From positions 1-32,606 of the forward strand of contig JAGVOT010000087.1 of assembly GCA_020052615.1 (NCBI GenBank): a stretch of DNA of 32,606 nt. Direction: 5' to 3'. The position numbers and the translations under genes were made by a program. Position 1 is the first letter of the stretch; the number at the start of each line of letters is the position of its first letter. The notes beneath the pieces are model-generated. The model saw only the letters and a program-made list of their open reading frames with translations. It was not told the origin of the DNA and searched no databases. This document shows, piece after piece, positions 8,843-29,435 of this stretch. This DNA is from Nitrospirota bacterium (GTDB lineage Bacteria; Nitrospirota; UBA9217).

Positions 8843-11800
8843 CTATTTCTTGACCTTCTTGGTCTTCTCTTCCCGTTCTATGCGAGCACCCTCTTCCAGG
8901 AACTTGAAGGATATCTCTTTTTCGATATCCTCCTTGATCGCCTCAAGGGAAATGAAGTCGCCCTGCTGCAGTTCCTGGACCTTGGTGGCCACATCGCGAT
9001 AAGATGGATCGATGGCGAAGACCTTCTGGAATTCCTCGAGGGACGACGGATTGTTCCCGACCCCCTGGAAGGCCAGGCCCAGGTCATAATGCATCCCGAC
9101 CCGTTCTTCGCTCGCTTCGCCGAAGCTATAGGAATAGCCCAGCGCGTTCTGGATCTCGAGGATCGCGGTCTCGTAGTCCCCCTTCTCCAGATAGCAGAGA
9201 CCGAGCATGTAGCGGCTCTGAATGAACTTTGGCTCCCCCTCGTTGGTCATGTTGAACTCGGAAACAGCGTCGTCAAGAAGACCCATTTCGCGGTAGGCAA
9301 CGCCCAGATTGTAGTGGGTGTCCTCGTCCTCTTTCTTCTCGTGGTCCTCGACGCCCTTCTTGAACTCCTCGAAGATCTCGTCGAGGCTCTGATCATGGGA
9401 CGCGGCCGGCGTCTTCTGCGCCGGGGCGGTGCTCAGCTCATCGCGAAGCTCCGCCGCAAGATCGAAGAAATCGCCGGACGCTCCCGAATCTTCCTGCTCC
9501 GCGGGCGGCAGTGAAGGAGCCTTGGGGGCTTTGGCGCCCTTGATCTCCCGCGCAATATCAGCAAAGGACTCCTCGAACTCCGAGGACTCGTCGACCCGTT
9601 CCGGGGCCTCCTTGGCCTTGGGGGCCGCTGCGCCCTTGATCTCCCGGGCAATATCGGCGAAGGACTCCTCGAACTCCGAGGACTCGTCGGCTCGTTCCGG
9701 GGCCTTCTTGGCCTTGGGGGCCGCTGCACCCTTGATCTCCCGGGCAATATCGGCGAAGGACTCCTCGAACTCCGCGGTCTCGTCAGCCGGTTTCGGGGCC
9801 TTCGCCGGCTTCTTTGCGGCAGGAGCGGCCTTCTTCCCCTTCCGCATCTCGGTGATCTCCTGCATAAGGGACTTGACCGAATCGACATCGGTCGCGGTCA
9901 CAATGTCCTCGGTCGCCCCGGAGCCCGCATCGACTATACTTTCGAGACCCTCCACAGCGTCGGCAAGCCGGGAGAACTCCTGGTACTCTTCCTTCTCCCG
10001 GGTGATCTCGACGACACGGTCCATGGCTCGCCGGTCTCCGGGTTTCAGCTCCAGGATCCGCTCATAGTGTTTCCGAGCCTCATCGAACAATCCCTGCTGG
10101 AAGTAGAACTCCGCTTCGGACCAGAGCTCGGCGGTGTCCGTTTCAGCGATATGCGCCTGAACAGGGGCCGGGGCTTCTTCCTCGGCCTCCTCAAAGAGCA
10201 TTTCGTCCCCGAATGAGACCTCCTCGGCTTCCTCCGGCTCGACAGGGGCGCGGCGGGACCTCGCCGCAGCGGGAGGTTCAACGGCAGGCGGGGCTTCGTG
10301 CGAAGGTCCTTCTTCATCCAGTCCCGCTCCGGGGATATGGAGCTCATCGACAATTTCTTCTGCCGGCGTTTCCAGATCCAGGTCGGGAACAGCGAGGTCC
10401 GGAACCTCGGGGATCATCTCGATGGACTCGGGCTCCTCGATCGTCTCTATGACCTCGGGTTCCTCGACAACAGCCCCCACGCCCAGCTTGGCCATGATCT
10501 GAACGTTGCCGGGCGCCAGTTCCAGGGCGGCCTGGAGCACTGATCTGCTCTCCTGCTCGCGCCCCAGCTTTTCATAAAGCTCGGCGAGCATCAGCGCCTG
10601 GACCACCGCCTTCCCGGTGTTCTTCTGCTCACGGTACAGATCAAGAAGCCTGGCGCGCAGCTTCGGGTTCTCGGGGAAGGCCCGGATGGCCCCTTCGAGC
10701 TGCTCTACCGCCTTGGCACCGAGGCCATACTTAATGAGCACGTCCACTTCGGTGAGCGCCTCGACGATGGAGTGGTCTTCCTCCTCGACCGGCGCTTCCA
10801 TGACCGGCTGCGGGGCCGTCACGGGCAGTTCTTCGAGTACCGTCGCAGGCTCTTCCACGGTGAATTCCTGCGCCGGAGGTGGTACAGGCCCCTTTGCTTC
10901 TGCCGGCGCGGCCGATAGCCCGCTGAGCCGCTCCTTGACCTCGTACAGGTCCGGGGCCAGGATCCCGGCCTTTGCGAGCACCTCGCGGGCATCATCGGTG
11001 CTTCCACGCGCAATGAGGGCATCTGCCGCCTGCACAAGTTCCCGCGCGCCCTCCGACGAGCGGCCGAGCCTGGAGAAGAGTTCTGCAAGGGCCGACGCGC
11101 CCGCGACGGGGTCATGGGCAACGGCAATGAAACCCTTCAGGATCTCGGCGGCTCCGGTGAAATCCACGGTCTCCGCCTTGTGCTCGGCGAGGGCGACCGC
11201 CTGTTTCAAAGCCTTGTCGTAGTCCTTCTTGGAGAGGTGGATCTGGTAGAGCTTTTCGCGAAGATCAAGGCGGGATGGATCGAGCGTCAGGAGCTTCTTA
11301 TAGACCTCACCGGCATCTTCCGCGCGACCTGCCTTCGTGAGGGCCTCCAGGTAGAGATCGATGAGCTCCTGGTTCTCCGGGTCGTTCTCGAAGGCCGGCT
11401 TGAGCGCCTTACAGGCCTCGACGAACTTCCCTTCCTTGAAATAAACGATGCCGGCCTTGTGGTAGACCGCTTTATTGTCCGGTTCCACGGCCAGGACCTT
11501 CTCGAACATCTGGCGCGCTTCCTGGAACGCTTCTTTCGATACGTGCTGATCGGCCGCATCAAGGTAGGCCTTGACCCCCTCTTTCCGCATGCCCTCCTTG
11601 AGATACATATCCGCCAGCTTCATGCGGAACGCCACATTGGCGGGGCTCAGGTCGGCCATCTTCTGGTAAATGCCCAGGGCCTTGGGCATATCGTTCTTCT
11701 TCTTATAATGATCGGCGACGACCTTGTAACTTTCGAGGGCGTTCCCGGTGAGGCCTTTATCGGCGTTCATATCGCCGAGGGCGAGATGGACCTCGACCTT

Positions 11801-12073
11801 GTCGGGATCGATATTGAGGACCTTTTTGTAGAGGGCTATGGCCTTGGAGGTGAACCCGTCCTCGGCGAGCAGGTCGGCTGCGCGTTTGTACGCATCCACC
11901 GCCTCGGCCTTGGAGTTCTTCTTGAGGCACAGGTCGCCGATGGTATTGAAAAGGGTGGCGTCGTTCGGCGATTCCTTGACGAGCTTCCGCCATTCGGCGA
12001 TGGCCTTGTCGAACTGGCCTTTGCCCGCGAACTTCTGCGCTTCTTTGATAACGGTATTTCTGTCAACGGCCAT
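8843..12073 (-). CDS. Large TPR protein with three 32-residue tandem repeats
   Basis: The product is 1076 aa with no signal peptide or membrane span, so probably a cytoplasmic scaffold. An N-terminal TPR array covers about residues 1-390 (KGQFDKAIAEWRKLV, KAIALYKKVLNIDPDKVEVH and others). More TPRs lie near 440-530 and 640-690 (QGLFDEARKHYERILELKPG) and at 915-1040. Between them are long acidic, Pro/Ala-rich linkers. Residues about 752-851 hold three copies of a 32-aa unit with EFEESFADIAREIKGA as core. The ATG at 12073 (MAVDRNTVIKEAQKF) is preferred over an 85-codon upstream extension that has no TPR character and crosses the promoter. There is no Shine-Dalgarno. Similar proteins occur in Nitrospirota and Geobacter-like genomes as I recall; function unknown. 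Confidence 0.9.
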   Translation of the reverse strand: MAVDRNTVIKEAQKFAGKGQFDKAIAEWRKLVKESPNDATLFNTIGDLCLKKNSKAEAVDAYKRAADLLAEDGFTSKAIALYKKVLNIDPDKVEVHLALGDMNADKGLTGNALESYKVVADHYKKKNDMPKALGIYQKMADLSPANVAFRMKLADMYLKEGMRKEGVKAYLDAADQHVSKEAFQEARQMFEKVLAVEPDNKAVYHKAGIVYFKEGKFVEACKALKPAFENDPENQELIDLYLEALTKAGRAEDAGEVYKKLLTLDPSRLDLREKLYQIHLSKKDYDKALKQAVALAEHKAETVDFTGAAEILKGFIAVAHDPVAGASALAELFSRLGRSSEGARELVQAADALIARGSTDDAREVLAKAGILAPDLYEVKERLSGLSAAPAEAKGPVPPPAQEFTVEEPATVLEELPVTAPQPVMEAPVEEEDHSIVEALTEVDVLIKYGLGAKAVEQLEGAIRAFPENPKLRARLLDLYREQKNTGKAVVQALMLAELYEKLGREQESRSVLQAALELAPGNVQIMAKLGVGAVVEEPEVIETIEEPESIEMIPEVPDLAVPDLDLETPAEEIVDELHIPGAGLDEEGPSHEAPPAVEPPAAARSRRAPVEPEEAEEVSFGDEMLFEEAEEEAPAPVQAHIAETDTAELWSEAEFYFQQGLFDEARKHYERILELKPGDRRAMDRVVEITREKEEYQEFSRLADAVEGLESIVDAGSGATEDIVTATDVDSVKSLMQEITEMRKGKKAAPAAKKPAKAPKPADETAEFEESFADIAREIKGAAAPKAKKAPERADESSEFEESFADIAREIKGAAAPKAKEAPERVDESSEFEESFADIAREIKGAKAPKAPSLPPAEQEDSGASGDFFDLAAELRDELSTAPAQKTPAASHDQSLDEIFEEFKKGVEDHEKKEDEDTHYNLGVAYREMGLLDDAVSEFNMTNEGEPKFIQSRYMLGLCYLEKGDYETAILEIQNALGYSYSFGEASEERVGMHYDLGLAFQGVGNNPSSLEEFQKVFAIDPSYRDVATKVQELQQGDFISLEAIKEDIEKEISFKFLEEGARIEREEKTKKVKK
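9530..9805. repeat. Three 96-bp tandem repeats inside the TPR gene
   Basis: The word GATCTCCCG recurs at 9542, 9638 and 9734, an exact 96-bp period. Copies are near-identical at the nucleotide level over most of their length, including third codon positions. This points to recent expansion or gene conversion. Each encodes a 32-residue unit; the copy nearest the N-terminus (highest coordinate) is the most diverged. Confidence 0.9.
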
Positions 12074-12081
12074 AGCGTAAC

Positions 12082-12111
12082 AAAATACCACACTTGTCGG
12101 GAAACTGTCAA
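12082..12111 (-). promoter_or_regulatory. Promoter of the TPR gene, close to the start codon
   Basis: On the minus strand a perfect TTGACA (12111-12106) is followed after 18 bp by TATTTT (12087-12082), preceded by TGG as an extended -10. The predicted start is about 12075, only 0-3 nt before the ATG at 12073. No Shine-Dalgarno is present, so the mRNA may be leaderless. Confidence 0.65.
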
Positions 12112-12154
12112 CACAGATTCGAGCAGAAAAGCCATCTTTCCCTTGATTTTTCAA

Positions 12155-12160
12155 TATAAT
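12155..12160 (+). promoter_or_regulatory. Possible -10 element of def
   Basis: A perfect TATAAT lies 20 bp before the preferred def ATG. No convincing -35 was found at 16-18 bp. It would start transcription near 12167. Confidence 0.4.
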
Positions 12161-12179
12161 CGTGGTAAACATGGAACCC

Positions 12180-12698
12180 ATGGCGATTCGCGATATAAAA
12201 AAGCTTCCCGACCCCGTGCTGCGTAAAAAAACTGCCTCGGTAGGGGCCATCGACGGCGATCTTTGCCGCCTGATCGACGATATGGTGGAAACCATGCACG
12301 CGGCGCCGGGCGTCGGCCTGGCGGCCAATCAGGTGGGTGTCTCCCTTCAGGTCGCTGTCATCGATATCGGTGATCACGAGGAGGAGGGAAAGAAACACCC
12401 CCTGGTGGTCCTGATCAATCCCGAGGTCCTTTCCCTTGAAGGTACCGTCGTGGCCGAAGAGGGCTGCCTCAGCGTCCCTGATTTCACCGAGAAGGTGAAG
12501 CGCGCTGCCCGGATCAAGGTCCGGGCGAAGGACCGCGAGGGCAAGACCTTCGAGCTGGAGGCAGACGGTCTCATGGCGAAGGCCCTGCAGCACGAAATCG
12601 ACCACCTCAACGGCATTCTGTTCATAGACCGGTTAAGCCCCATCAAGAAGAGCATCTTCCGGCGAAGAATGAAAAAGGCCCTCGCAGAATCAGCGTAA
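12180..12698 (+). CDS. def: Peptide deformylase
   Basis: This Fe2+/Zn2+ metalloenzyme removes the formyl group from nascent proteins. All three motifs are present: GVGLAANQVG, EEGCLSVP (metal-binding Cys) and QHEIDHLNG (HExxH). The product is 172 aa from the ATG at 12180 (MAIRDIKKLPDPVLR), the conventional start. In-frame ATG 12171 and GTG 12162 are alternatives, and none has a strong ribosome-binding site. The following gene, fmt, makes the formyl-Met-tRNA whose formyl group Def later removes. The def-fmt pairing is widespread in bacteria. Confidence 0.96.
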   Translation: MAIRDIKKLPDPVLRKKTASVGAIDGDLCRLIDDMVETMHAAPGVGLAANQVGVSLQVAVIDIGDHEEEGKKHPLVVLINPEVLSLEGTVVAEEGCLSVPDFTEKVKRAARIKVRAKDREGKTFELEADGLMAKALQHEIDHLNGILFIDRLSPIKKSIFRRRMKKALAESA

Positions 12699-17796: not shown

Positions 17797-19584
17797 GTGA
17801 CGATAAAGAAACAGAACGTAAAGGTACCCTTTGAGCTCAAGGACGTGAAGGAACCCGTCCTCTATCGGGACATCTTCCCGTACTCCAGCGTTCCCAAGGT
17901 CGTGTTCGAGGACCGGATCATCCAGGCCAACATGCCCAAGGACATCTGGCTCACCGACACGACCTTCCGCGACGGCCAGCAGTCCCGGCCGCCCTACACG
18001 CCGGTCCAGATCGCGGACATCTTCGACTTCATGCACCGCATGAGCGGCCCCAACGGCGTGATCCGCCAGACCGAGTTTTTCCTCTACTCGGAGAAGGACC
18101 GGGAGGCGGTGCGGCTCTGCCAGGAACGGGGCTACAAGTTCCCGGAGGTCACCGGCTGGATCCGGGCGAACAAGAACGACTTCAAGCTCGTGAAGGAGAT
18201 GGGGCTCAAGGAAACGGGCATCCTCACCTCCTGCTCGGACTACCATATCTTCCTGAAGATGAACCTGTCCCGCAAGGACGCGCTCAGGGCGTACCTCGAC
18301 ATCGTGGCCACGGCACTTGAGCAGGGCATCGTGCCCCGCTGCCACCTCGAGGACATCACGCGGGCGGACTTCTATGGTTTTGTCCTCCCCTTCGTGCAGG
18401 ACCTCATGAAGCTCTCCGAGGCCGCCAAGATGCCCGTGAAGGTGCGGGCCTGCGATACCATGGGCTACGGATTCCCCTTCCCGGGAACGTCCCTGCCGCG
18501 CGGCGTGCCCGAGATCTTCTACGCTCTGATCCACGAGGGAGGCGTCCCGTCGGAACTTCTCGAATGGCACGGCCACAATGACTTCCACAAGGGCCTCGTG
18601 AACGGCACGGCGGCGTGGCTGTACGGCTGCTCGGCAGTGAACGGCGCACTGCTCGGCTTCGGAGAACGCACGGGAAACACGCCCATCGAGGCCATGCTCA
18701 TCGACTACATCAGCCTCACGGGCAGCGACGCGGGCATCGACACCGCCGCCATCACGGAAATGGCGGAATACTTCCGGCGGGAGATGGGCTTTGACATCCC
18801 CTCCAACTACCCCTTCGTGGGTTCGGAGTTCAATTCCACGGCGGCCGGCATCCATGCGGACGGCATGATGAAGAACGAGGAGATCTACAACATCTTCGAC
18901 ACCACAAGGATCCTCAAGCGTCCCATGGGCGTGATCATCACGGACAAGTCCGGCATCGCAGGCATTGCCCACTGGGTGAACAGCCACCTCGGCCTCGACG
19001 CGGACAAGAAGATCGACAAACGCCACCCCGGCCTCGCCAAGATGAACAAGTGGGTCCTGGAGCAATACGAACAGGGCAGGACCACGAGCATGTCCCACGA
19101 CGAGTTGCAGGAGAAGGCGAAGAAGTACCTGCCCGAGTACTTCGTCTCCGACCTTGACCGGCTCAAGAAAAAGGCCTCGGAATTGGCGCGGCACATCGTC
19201 GAGGGCTTCGTGGAGCGGCCGGAGATCCGGACCATGGACCCGGCGAAGCAGGAGCCCGTGATGGAGACGCTGCAGAAGGAAGATCCCTATGTCCAGTTCG
19301 CCTACGTGGTGAATGCAAAGGGCAAGAAGATCACGCGCAACATCACGGACGTGGCGGACAAGGCGAAGTACGAGACCGCCGGTCTCGGCGACGACTTCTC
19401 GGACCGGCCCTGGTTCATCAACCCCATGAAGGACGGGAAGAGCTTCGTCTCGGACTTCTACACCTCGAAGATCACGGGCGCCCTCTGCATCACCGTCTCG
19501 GCGCCCATTGCCGACGACGAGAGCAACATCATCGGCGTCTTCGGCGTGGATATCCGTTTCGAGGACCTCGTGCGGGCGGAATAG
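17797..19584 (+). CDS. DRE-TIM metallolyase (Re-citrate/isopropylmalate synthase-like) with C-terminal Cache-like domain
   Basis: The product is 595 aa. Residues about 50-400 form an HMGL-like TIM barrel with the DRE-type motif DTTFRDGQQ (54-62), SCSDYHIF, PRCHLEDITRADF and the metal-site WHGHNDF (257-263). These resemble Re-citrate synthases and homocitrate or isopropylmalate synthases, which condense acetyl-CoA with a 2-oxo acid. The exact substrate cannot be read from sequence. About residues 486-592 form a second module: FAYVVNAKGKKI, DRPWFINPMKDGK, VSDFYTSKITG, CITVSAPI and IIGVFGVDIRFEDL, the pattern of Cache/PDC ligand-sensing domains. There is no membrane span, so the sensor would be intracellular. 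GTG at 17797 follows GGGAGG; the frame upstream crosses a repeat. A strong terminator follows. Confidence 0.85.
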   Translation: MTIKKQNVKVPFELKDVKEPVLYRDIFPYSSVPKVVFEDRIIQANMPKDIWLTDTTFRDGQQSRPPYTPVQIADIFDFMHRMSGPNGVIRQTEFFLYSEKDREAVRLCQERGYKFPEVTGWIRANKNDFKLVKEMGLKETGILTSCSDYHIFLKMNLSRKDALRAYLDIVATALEQGIVPRCHLEDITRADFYGFVLPFVQDLMKLSEAAKMPVKVRACDTMGYGFPFPGTSLPRGVPEIFYALIHEGGVPSELLEWHGHNDFHKGLVNGTAAWLYGCSAVNGALLGFGERTGNTPIEAMLIDYISLTGSDAGIDTAAITEMAEYFRREMGFDIPSNYPFVGSEFNSTAAGIHADGMMKNEEIYNIFDTTRILKRPMGVIITDKSGIAGIAHWVNSHLGLDADKKIDKRHPGLAKMNKWVLEQYEQGRTTSMSHDELQEKAKKYLPEYFVSDLDRLKKKASELARHIVEGFVERPEIRTMDPAKQEPVMETLQKEDPYVQFAYVVNAKGKKITRNITDVADKAKYETAGLGDDFSDRPWFINPMKDGKSFVSDFYTSKITGALCITVSAPIADDESNIIGVFGVDIRFEDLVRAE

Positions 19585-25040: not shown

Positions 25041-28000
25041 CTATGAACTCTGCCCTGCCATTCTTCGAGATGACCGTATGGCCGCGTGCTGAAGGACCTG
25101 CTGAATGTGGACTTGCACCTGCCGAAGGACCGAGGGCGAGACCGCGTAACCGTCGCTTTCGTAGGTCAGGACAGGCATTCCCTGCCGGATGCTGAGCGGT
25201 TTCAGGATCGCCTCGGAGATGCGGAACGGGAGGCAGTTGAACGGGCCGATGATGATGATCCCGTCATAACCGTCAGCCTCGGCCTCCAGCCCCCGGCCCA
25301 CGGTCGGGAGGATCTCCCCATAGATCCCCGGAGACACATGATCAGCAGCCGTCTCGAACAGGGATGCGGCGTCATTGGGACCTGCCACGAGCAGGCCCGA
25401 CTTCCCGAACAGGCCCCGGTAATCGTCCTCGATGCGCCGCTCCAGATGATAAGCAAGCCAGTGCTGCAGATACTGTTTGCCGTCCTGCTGGAACATCCTC
25501 GAACAGGCCTTGGCGAGCGCCAGGCCGCCCGGTTTCATGCCCCACCCGCTCGCGGCATCGGCCACGCCGTAGTAGGTGTGATAGTGCAGCAGGTCGGTCA
25601 TATCAACGGGCTTCAGGATGATGCCTTGCCCGCTATAGAGGTCCCGGACGCCGTCCATGAAGAACGGGCTGAAGCGGGTGAAAAAGTCGCCCATGACCAG
25701 CACCTTGGGGCAGGCCCGCGGCTCCCGGACGCGCCGGAGCGCTGCGATCGCGTTGACGAATCCGCCCAACTCGGCATGGAACCGGGCCCCTGAGTCCGCC
25801 GCAACGACGATCCGCCGCCACTCCTGCCTGAGCCGGTCCACGCTGCCTGCGGCGCCCACCACACGGAGCACGTTCTCGATCTCCACGACCAGGTCCGCTA
25901 CGATGAGCGTTTGCGCCGAATTCTTTGCCAGGGTCATTCTGTCCCTGGCGCTCCGGCCGTTCTCTTCGGTCGGCGCGAACAGGAACAGGTCGGTCAATCG
26001 CTGCTCCTCGATGAAGCGCCTGAGAAAACCCAGATAGGCGTCCAGTACGCAGGGCGCACCGCCTTTCAGCATATAAAATCCCGCGATCTCGCCCGGCCTG
26101 CGCGACTCGTTAATCCCGAGGATTTGTCCGATGCAGAGCGGCAGCGGAAGGCACTCCCGTCCCGATGTGTACTGGAGGCCCCGTTCGAGCTGGGTCCGGT
26201 CCAGCGGAGCGATCTCGCCCGTGTGCAGACCCGCCCAGCGGAACGCCATGCCCAGGGCCTGGGTATGGACCTCGGAAAAGTTCGGGAAATAAAAGGTAAC
26301 GCGCGGGTCGTTCATGGCTACCGTTTCGCCATTGGTCCGGACGACCTGGTTGTTGCTGCCGATCCGGCAGGGAGTGAACGGCGCGCCCTGTACAACGGCG
26401 GCGGCATGATGATGGTGAACGATGTCGAGAAAGGCCTCGATGCGGGTCTGGATCCCGGCGTCGGCGGTGTGCGCGTCGATCTCGAGGAGCAGGTAGGGCT
26501 TGGAACCCATCCCGGCCGCGACCTCGGCATGCGTGAAGGCATCGACGGTGCAGCTGAAATTGCTGATGCAGACCAGGAACAGGTTCGGATGTTTCTTGGC
26601 CAGCGCCATGGCGTTCAGGATCTGGTTCGAGAAGTGCCAGGCAAAGGGCCCTTCCCCGACCGGCGCCAGACAGTCGGCTGGGATGGCCGCCACGCCCATG
26701 CTCGAGAGCTTCCTGCCGATCGATTGGGATGCCTCTGCTGCATAGGCGTTGTAGCTGCGTCCGGCAAGCAGGACCGCCGGTCTTCCGTCCTGCAGCGCGC
26801 GCTCAAGGGCCTTTTGTCCCAGCTCCTGCATGGCCCGTTCCGCCGCCCGCTGAGCGCTCTTTGCCGCCTCCCAGGCCTGCCCGACCGCTTCGCGCCCGAT
26901 CCCGAACTCTTTCGCGAAGAGCTCCTCAAGCTCGGGGCCGCATTCATAGCCGCGGGAAAGGTCGAGGACCGGCGAAAGAACGCGCAACTCCGGAAATGCC
27001 GCGGCAAGGAAAAAGGGGCTGGCCTGCGATATGGGGCACAAATAGGAATCATGGCACGGGCCGGGCTTCGGCATGCGCTTCACATGCGGCAGGAATATCA
27101 GGCCCACGCCCTGGTTTGCAAGGTCCAGGACCGCTCCGTGGGCTGTCTGCGCAGGAAAGCAGAAGCCGGAATAGGATTTCAGCTCGCCCCGCGGGTCCAG
27201 GCCGGACAGGACCACCTCGAATCCCAGACAGGACAGGAACGTCGAATAGAGCGGGTAGAGCGAGTGCGTCAGCAAAGCCCGCGGAATCCCGATTCTCGGC
27301 TTGCCGCTGTTGTTCGTCTGTTTTTCTCCCGGAGTGTTGTGCGTGTCAAAGATCATGTCCGCCCGCTGTCCGACCAGGTCCGGAGCCTCGACAACGCGGG
27401 CGTTCCGCTTCCAGACATTTTCATACAGACTGCAGCGTCCGCCGAAGGGGAACCGCCGGCCGGCGACCTCGAAGCGGTCGATGGTGCAATGCATCCCGCA
27501 GGCCTTGCAGGTGAAGCGGCCCGGGGACTCCATCTCAGGTGCGGCAAGGGCAAGCAGGTCTGTTGCCTGGTCGAACGCGGCTTGGGACCGCGTGAGGGCG
27601 AGAAGCGCCACGCCGAGCGCTCCCATCAGCTCCGGGTCGGGCGGGATCACGACCGTGCGGTCCACGCTCTGGGCAAAGGCATGGCCCACGGCGCGGTTCA
27701 GGGCCACGCCGCCCTGGAGGAACACTTTTTTTCCCACCACGCGCGGCCCCTTGACCTTGGTGAGGTAGTTTGAGGCGATGGCATAGACCAGTCCGGCCAC
27801 GATGTTCTCCCGCGACTGGCCCTGCTGGAAGGCGATGCGTATGTCGGAATTGATGAAGGCTGCGCAGGTCGCTTTGAGCTGCACCGGAGCGGCTGCGGAG
27901 AGCGCTGCTCCGGCGATCTCCAGGACGGTGATGCCGAGGTCTCCCTGGGCGCTTTCTTCCAGGAACGAGCCGGTGCCGGCGGAGCATGCGTTGTTCATGG

Positions 28001-29249
28001 CGTAGTCGACGGGCACGCCGTTCCGCAGAAGGATATACTTTGCGTCCTGGCCGCCGATCTCGAAGATGGTGTCCACGTCGGGATCGAAGTGGGCCGCGCC
28101 TGCGGCATGGGCCGAGATCTCGTTGTACACATGCGAGGTGCCGAGGTAGGCCCCGATGAGCTCCCGGGCCGAGCCGGTGGTCCCGACCAGCCCTACCCGG
28201 AGGTTCCCGGCCTCGACCGCCATGGCCCTGAGGCATTCGCGTGTCGCTGCCACGGGATCGCTCTTCGTGCGGGTATAATGCGATGAGACCACTGCCCGCG
28301 TCGCGGGATCGATCAGGACGGCCTTGGTCGTCGTCGATCCGGCATCGAGGCCGAGGACCAGCAGACCTCCGGTCGGGGCCTGGCGCGGCTGCGGTGCGAT
28401 GACCTGCACGCGGTCCGCGTACTTCCCGAGCGGGGGAGCGCTGTCCAGGACCTGCTGCGGCGAGATCTTCGGGGAACGGTAGCGGGGATCGTCCCGGGTG
28501 AGCAGGGCGCAGCCCCAGGCTTCGAAGTAAAGGCTCTCGGGAACAACGACGAATTCTGTCGAGGGAAGCTTCTCTCGCAGCGACGCGAGCATTGCGGCGT
28601 TGCGGGACAGGCCGCCGATGACGAGCGCCCGGTCGAGCCGGCGCTGGCCTTTCTCGAGCAGCGAGATCACCTTGTCGGCCATGCGGTCATGAAGCGTGTG
28701 CAGGATGTCTTCGGGGCTCGCTTCGTTCCGGTTCAGTTTGTGGGTGATGTCCGATTTGCAGTGGACCGAACAGCGGCCTGCCAGGGGGACGACCTTGCCG
28801 ATGAACGACCGATCGATCGCGTCCTCCATGTCCAGCTTCATCCGTGTGATCTGCTGCACAAAGAACTCGCCGCTGCCGGCAGCGCATTTATTGTGCGAAA
28901 GGACGTTCGCGATCCTGCCGTCCGTGAGGAAGTACACCAGAAACGATTCACCGCCCAGCGAAGCGACAGCATCGAACTCGCCCAACCTCTCAGCCAACGC
29001 CCGCTCGATGGCGGCAACCTCCGTGATATGGCCGCGGCTGCCGGAAATCCCGAAATACTCTGCTTTGCCGAATTCCTTCTCCAGCAGCAGTTCCCTGAGC
29101 GCGTCCATGGGTCTGCCCTGATGGGTCATGACGCGGGTGAAAGACCCCTCCCCCTGCAGCGCCACCGCCTTTAGCGTGATGGCGCCGATGTTCACGCCCA
29201 CGAAACAGGGCTGCGGCGGTGCAGTATGTCTCCCGGGCTGGTTGTTCAC
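25041..29249 (-). CDS. Giant CoA-dehydratase activase-like fusion (BadF/BadG/HgdC family)
   Basis: The product is about 1402 aa. Two activase (ASKHA ATPase) modules stand in tandem. The first has VGVNIGAITLKAVAL and HNKCAAGSGEFF (Cys near 121), the second LGLDAGSTTTKAVLID and NNACSAGTGSFLEE (Cys near 420), then KATCAAFINSD. The Cys of these motifs holds the bridging 4Fe-4S cluster in HgdC. A Cys-rich linker near 580 (CKACGMHC, GGRCSLYENV) leads into a C-terminal half of over 700 residues starting RIGIPRALLTHSLYPLY, the DUF2229/HgdB-like region. The family couples ATP hydrolysis to low-potential electron transfer in anaerobes. The partner reaction is not known. The first module's P-loop is degenerate (IGAIT for AGSTT). 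GTG 29249 follows GAGGG; a TTG at 29252 is the alternative. Confidence 0.92.
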   Translation of the reverse strand: MNNQPGRHTAPPQPCFVGVNIGAITLKAVALQGEGSFTRVMTHQGRPMDALRELLLEKEFGKAEYFGISGSRGHITEVAAIERALAERLGEFDAVASLGGESFLVYFLTDGRIANVLSHNKCAAGSGEFFVQQITRMKLDMEDAIDRSFIGKVVPLAGRCSVHCKSDITHKLNRNEASPEDILHTLHDRMADKVISLLEKGQRRLDRALVIGGLSRNAAMLASLREKLPSTEFVVVPESLYFEAWGCALLTRDDPRYRSPKISPQQVLDSAPPLGKYADRVQVIAPQPRQAPTGGLLVLGLDAGSTTTKAVLIDPATRAVVSSHYTRTKSDPVAATRECLRAMAVEAGNLRVGLVGTTGSARELIGAYLGTSHVYNEISAHAAGAAHFDPDVDTIFEIGGQDAKYILLRNGVPVDYAMNNACSAGTGSFLEESAQGDLGITVLEIAGAALSAAAPVQLKATCAAFINSDIRIAFQQGQSRENIVAGLVYAIASNYLTKVKGPRVVGKKVFLQGGVALNRAVGHAFAQSVDRTVVIPPDPELMGALGVALLALTRSQAAFDQATDLLALAAPEMESPGRFTCKACGMHCTIDRFEVAGRRFPFGGRCSLYENVWKRNARVVEAPDLVGQRADMIFDTHNTPGEKQTNNSGKPRIGIPRALLTHSLYPLYSTFLSCLGFEVVLSGLDPRGELKSYSGFCFPAQTAHGAVLDLANQGVGLIFLPHVKRMPKPGPCHDSYLCPISQASPFFLAAAFPELRVLSPVLDLSRGYECGPELEELFAKEFGIGREAVGQAWEAAKSAQRAAERAMQELGQKALERALQDGRPAVLLAGRSYNAYAAEASQSIGRKLSSMGVAAIPADCLAPVGEGPFAWHFSNQILNAMALAKKHPNLFLVCISNFSCTVDAFTHAEVAAGMGSKPYLLLEIDAHTADAGIQTRIEAFLDIVHHHHAAAVVQGAPFTPCRIGSNNQVVRTNGETVAMNDPRVTFYFPNFSEVHTQALGMAFRWAGLHTGEIAPLDRTQLERGLQYTSGRECLPLPLCIGQILGINESRRPGEIAGFYMLKGGAPCVLDAYLGFLRRFIEEQRLTDLFLFAPTEENGRSARDRMTLAKNSAQTLIVADLVVEIENVLRVVGAAGSVDRLRQEWRRIVVAADSGARFHAELGGFVNAIAALRRVREPRACPKVLVMGDFFTRFSPFFMDGVRDLYSGQGIILKPVDMTDLLHYHTYYGVADAASGWGMKPGGLALAKACSRMFQQDGKQYLQHWLAYHLERRIEDDYRGLFGKSGLLVAGPNDAASLFETAADHVSPGIYGEILPTVGRGLEAEADGYDGIIIIGPFNCLPFRISEAILKPLSIRQGMPVLTYESDGYAVSPSVLRQVQVHIQQVLQHAAIRSSRRMAGQSS

Positions 29250-29435
29250 CAATATTCCCTCGTTCCCCTGGGGCGATATGGCCCCACTGCCGTGCTATTC
29301 TTCCGAACCGCGTGTATCGCGGTGAACTTGGGCAACATCCTGAAGGGCGAGTGTGGTCCAGGCATGAAGAAACCTGCGGTTCGGATCCGGTCCGCTCACG
29401 GTAATGCAGGATCCGCAGATGACCGAGCTGCATCA
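29250..29435 (-). other. Untranslated leader of the activase gene
   Basis: If the promoter at 29436-29464 is used, the transcript has about 180 nt before the start codon. Within it GGATCC occurs twice in inverted setting, flanked by CTGC and GCAG (about 29367-29419), so a bulged hairpin can form. No known riboswitch was recognised. Confidence 0.35.

Follow-up and report, generated by a model that had tools for sequence, protein, structure and literature searches.

The window analysed here, a 32,606-nucleotide contig of a Nitrospirota bacterium (JAGVOT010000087.1, positions 1 to 32,606), raises the question of why one of its genes joins an enzyme barrel to a Cache sensor module, and which reaction that barrel catalyzes. 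The gene lies at 17797..19584 on the forward strand and encodes 595 amino acids from a GTG start codon, which is preceded by GGGAGGCTGCA and matches the start in close relatives. A sequence-only reading had pointed to a DRE-TIM barrel followed by a Cache-type domain, and the motifs on which it drew (DTTFRDGQQ, HGHND, DRPWF, VSDFY, CITVSAPI, and GVFGVDI) all occur in the 595-residue translation. The barrel-Cache fusion is confirmed by our analysis, and we consider it probable that the protein is a cytoplasmic Re-citrate synthase carrying its own metabolite sensor. On the opposite strand a long frame also covers the gene; it resembles the shadow frame that G+C-rich coding sequences usually cast.

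Relatives were collected by scanning one genome per species; at least 591 loci encode them, and 80 were kept. The barrel itself (residues 52-324; 17950..18768, +) matched the HMGL-like family of Pfam (PF00682, E 2.4e-25). An AlphaFold model built from 75 aligned sequences had a predicted local distance difference test score (pLDDT) of 90, and its best PDB matches by Foldseek were homocitrate (E 4e-26), methylthioalkylmalate, and isopropylmalate synthases, in agreement with the proposed DRE-TIM fold. In an alignment of 75 relatives, barrel residues R58, D59, E185, T221, H258, H260, E290, and N294 were invariant, as were all twelve catalytic and metal positions examined. The barrel is followed by a post-barrel (communication) region (residues 331-449; 18787..19143, +), which has a weak HCS_D2 match at 349-403 and in which H353, D355, and Y364 are invariant, and by a helical linker (residues 450-478; 19144..19230, +) that contains an AlphaFold helix at 452-471 and is the least conserved part of the protein (mean column conservation, 0.50). 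A Pfam scan of the protein found no LeuA dimerization domain, and the highest mean Kyte-Doolittle value of any 19-mer in its 595 residues was 1.12, bearing out the prediction that it lacks a membrane span. By computation, then, the DRE-TIM active site is intact, the pocket of the C-terminal Cache module is conserved, and the protein does not span the membrane.

The Cache sensor module comprises residues 479-593 (19231..19575, +). Pfam matched dCache_1 at 479-591 (53.7 bits vs. a cut-off of 45) and MCP-like_PDC_1 at 508-591 (53.1 bits vs. a cut-off of 27), and both families were matched in all 38 relatives that were scanned individually. Profile comparison of the tail with the PDB returned Tlp3, KinD, and PctA (E 4.7e-7 to 5.1e-11), and Foldseek returned KinD (E 1.4e-6), YkuI, Tlp3, and CitA. 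The Foldseek matches to Cache proteins come from the ordered part of a single-sequence model that was poor overall (pLDDT 37), and the list for the alignment-based model was dominated by the barrel; the latter model shows the Cache fold with its long N-terminal helix, placing the elements in helices 452-471 and 482-495 and strands 499-506, 563-572, and 578-587. Since Pfam, PDB profiles, and Foldseek agree, the proposal of a C-terminal Cache domain in place of a LeuA-type regulatory domain holds, and neither of the contrary outcomes named beforehand, a tail without a Cache fold or one matching the LeuA C-terminal domain, occurred. Extracytoplasmic location, which is usual though not universal in the Cache superfamily, was not found here, as no membrane span is present. 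However, this does not exclude the tail from the superfamily, because YkuI_C is a known, principally intracellular exception (PMC4822843). YkuI (2bas), matched by both Foldseek and profile, is a close parallel in location, but its output is an EAL signaling domain rather than an enzyme of central metabolism.

What does the barrel make? Against the NCBIfam models of isopropylmalate, citramalate, and homocitrate synthases, the protein fell far short of the cut-offs. In 19 of the 80 loci, from Elusimicrobia, Omnitrophota, Nitrospirae, Syntrophorhabdia, Desulfovibrio, and Erginobacter, aconitase and/or isocitrate dehydrogenase genes lie directly downstream on the same strand, and several of these neighbors pass the NCBIfam thresholds of the aconitate hydratase or NADP isocitrate dehydrogenase models. 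A conventional (Si-type) citrate synthase of family PF00285 was not found in 25 of the 34 carrier genomes and was present in 13 of 14 control genomes. Its strict absence from carriers was considered as a rule and rejected, as nine of the 34 carriers, and the window's own genome, have PF00285 proteins. Genome G256, which we take to be that of Syntrophus aciditrophicus SB, has three clear homologues, namely LeuA, CimA, and a full-length protein (G256:C1:1509664-1511409) 60% identical to that of the window, with the same Cache module and in the same clade of the barrel tree; two marginal matches besides these (E about 0.004-0.007) are confined to the Cache portions of other proteins. The Re-citrate synthase of S. 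aciditrophicus has been identified and characterized (Kim et al., 2013, as cited in PMC12016533), and enzymes of the Heliomicrobium / C. difficile / Thermoanaerobacter type (e.g., HM1_2993) are reported to be only ~28% identical to the S. aciditrophicus type (PMC12016533); as described, the latter have a DRE-TIM barrel and the same proposed reaction. Given the gene neighbors, the lack of Si-citrate synthase in most carriers, and the putative orthologue in S. aciditrophicus, Re-citrate synthesis is the best reading, and this genomic context makes it most likely, rather than isopropylmalate synthesis, as the reaction of the barrel. The enzyme would condense acetyl-CoA and oxaloacetate into citrate, the first step towards 2-oxoglutarate and glutamate.

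The same data bear on two other views of the barrel. It might make a different 2-hydroxy acid (homocitrate, citramalate, or isopropylmalate), with the Cache module sensing the product of that pathway. NifV homocitrate synthase and archaeal LEU1 do give the top NCBIfam scores, which nonetheless fall far short of the cut-off (125 of 463 bits), and a fourth homologue in the window's genome is homocitrate-synthase-like, again below cut-off. However, LeuA and CimA are separate genes both in that genome and in S. aciditrophicus, the neighbors score as aconitate hydratase and isocitrate dehydrogenase, and most carriers lack a detected Si-citrate synthase, so that we regard a different product as improbable. 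Alternatively, the barrel could have left biosynthesis altogether and the Cache module could be the working part of a moonlighting signaling protein, as might be imagined from the signaling outputs with which Cache is otherwise reported (PMC4822843). The invariance of the twelve catalytic and metal positions, the linkage to aconitase and isocitrate dehydrogenase, and the persistence of orthologues without Cache, one of them in a genome where Si-citrate synthase was not found, render this very improbable.

If the protein is a Re-citrate synthase, what would its Cache module sense? In the amino-acid receptor PctA, the carboxyl group of the ligand is bound by R126 and the pocket is lined by W128 and Y144; Y129 has a structural role, and D173 is among the key residues of the motif (PMC10104139). 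By profile alignment these correspond to R537, W539, F540, Y555, and D585, a set kept in 70 of the 75 relatives; R537 also aligns with R131 of KinD, the residue mutated in KinD structures, and KinD has been crystallized with pyruvate as well. PctA and Tlp3, amino-acid-sensing dCache_1 receptors, and KinD share with the window protein a profile match and an R/W/Y/D pocket, but they are extracytoplasmic membrane receptors with two modules, whereas here a single cytoplasmic module is attached to an enzyme. From these residues and this analogy, we infer that the module may bind a small carboxylate, an amino acid being the likeliest; pathway logic would lead us to guess at a glutamate-family end product. 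A purely structural module, serving dimerization or stability without a ligand, is an unlikely but conceivable alternative for a Re-citrate synthase of this kind, as fold-only roles exist for sensor-type domains, the Cache part evolves faster than the barrel, and five relatives manage without it. Nevertheless, the invariance of W539, F540, S557, and D585 and the 93% conservation of R537 across the 75 relatives exceed what the fold would need. The Cache part is under purifying selection, with a ratio of nonsynonymous to synonymous substitution (dN/dS) of about 0.09-0.26 against close relatives.

In a sensor-bearing Re-citrate synthase, ligand binding in the Cache module would change activity allosterically through the helix at 450-495, which includes the helical linker. 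The module would then play the part of the LeuA regulatory domain or of the RAM domain of Sulfolobus homocitrate synthase. Those enzymes (1sr9 and 6ktq, respectively) share the barrel fold, are the best Foldseek matches, and, as is proposed here, bear a regulatory domain that binds a ligand at the C terminus of the DRE-TIM enzyme, but the domain is of LeuA or RAM type rather than Cache, and identity in the structural alignments is ~14-24%. By such analogy, a ligand may act on enzyme activity here too.

Several observations weigh against a sensor-bearing Re-citrate synthase. The window's genome has two PF00285 proteins, one clearly of the 2-methylcitrate synthase type, and the gene is therefore not the sole candidate citrate synthase; nor is there an aconitase beside it in the window. 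The G256 protein was equated with the published S. aciditrophicus enzyme by elimination, SYN_02536 not being matched by accession, and the barrel tree holds no C. kluyveri sequence. As for the pocket, the window protein has five of the six residues of the dCache_1AA motif, with F for Y129, in a single module; the sixth position (PctA Y121) is not aromatic, and all six are present, with an aromatic sixth, in only 11 of the 75 relatives, mostly Desulfovibrionaceae. The window's genome further encodes isocitrate dehydrogenase and a member of the aconitase family. A citrate-synthase-II-like gene (L085; G000:C81:1374-2453) lies just after an aconitase-family fragment at a contig start, and therefore the organism may run both types of citrate synthase. 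Clostridium thermocellum likewise has both kinds (PMC12016533).

Far from being peculiar to the source organism, the fusion is what a large and old family normally shows. Nearly all of the 80 kept relatives are full length through the Cache domain, and carriers include Nitrospirota, Thermodesulfobacteriota, Spirochaetota, Elusimicrobiota, Omnitrophota, Lentisphaerota, Auribacterota, and others. The protein was found in 31 of 148 sampled Nitrospirota genomes, in 92 of 149 genomes of the class around G157, and in 129 of 247 genomes of the family around a Fundidesulfovibrio. An assembly or frameshift artefact fusing two genes, for which nothing speaks except the unusual architecture, is refuted by the recurrence of the fusion at an identical junction in independent genomes by the hundred, finished chromosomes included, and its probability is negligible. 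In five Auribacterota genomes the relatives, 63-67% identical, stop at about residue 450 and lack a Cache module. They form one group (99/85) inside the Cache-bearing proteins of the barrel tree, which suggests a single loss of the module, and their ends read as a natural domain boundary at ~residue 450.

Other relatives without a Cache module were also seen. Two from Desulfovibrionaceae (L146 and L147, in G423 and G382) are 45% identical and form the nearest group outside the Cache-bearing clade. Two more (L148 and L149, in G427 and G387), 38-39% identical, have a DRE motif that reads FREGQQ and a different tail of ~110-130 amino acids that matches nothing in Pfam and may be a sensor domain of another kind or a decayed one. 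A Cache-less protein on plasmid pDrdI of Deinococcus wulumuqiensis (L152; 41%), named pyruvate carboxyltransferase, is encoded divergently beside a citrate/2-methylcitrate synthase gene. One Cache-bearing genome also encodes a Cache-less homologue of 455 amino acids (L130; G298:C191), which is ~31-33% identical and might belong to the Heliomicrobium/C. difficile type of Re-citrate synthase. Elsewhere in the window, 25041-29252 (-) encodes a 1403-residue protein with acyl-CoA dehydratase activase matches, and 8843-12328 (-) encodes a tetratricopeptide repeat protein of 1161 residues, the N-terminal part of which is similar, at a score below cut-off, to SgmX, a type IV pilus protein.

The regulation of Re-citrate synthase is, to our knowledge, little understood. 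In a survey of 31,572 Cache proteins, 78% were confidently extracellular, and the outputs were in signal transduction apart from one family (PMC4822843). The open literature, in a coverage that did not extend to the original reports of the S. aciditrophicus and C. kluyveri enzymes, gave nothing relevant linking Cache to this enzyme, and searches with DVU0398 and SYN_02536 likewise gave nothing relevant. The enzyme is already known; a cytoplasmic Cache domain on it, in a predicted regulatory role, appears to be undescribed. Since the Cache-less relatives set the domain boundary and the gene is common, the idea could be tested at once with purified protein. If it is true, a Cache sensor would have a central metabolic enzyme as its output, and regulatory domains of a third type would be known on DRE-TIM enzymes. 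Attached to a citrate synthase, the same sensor would be seen in the direct allosteric control of central metabolism, with the enzyme itself probably sensing a metabolite. Sulfate reducers and syntrophs commonly carry the gene, and we see an even chance that anaerobic bacteria of many phyla control how carbon enters citrate with a receptor-type amino-acid sensor that is part of the citrate synthase.
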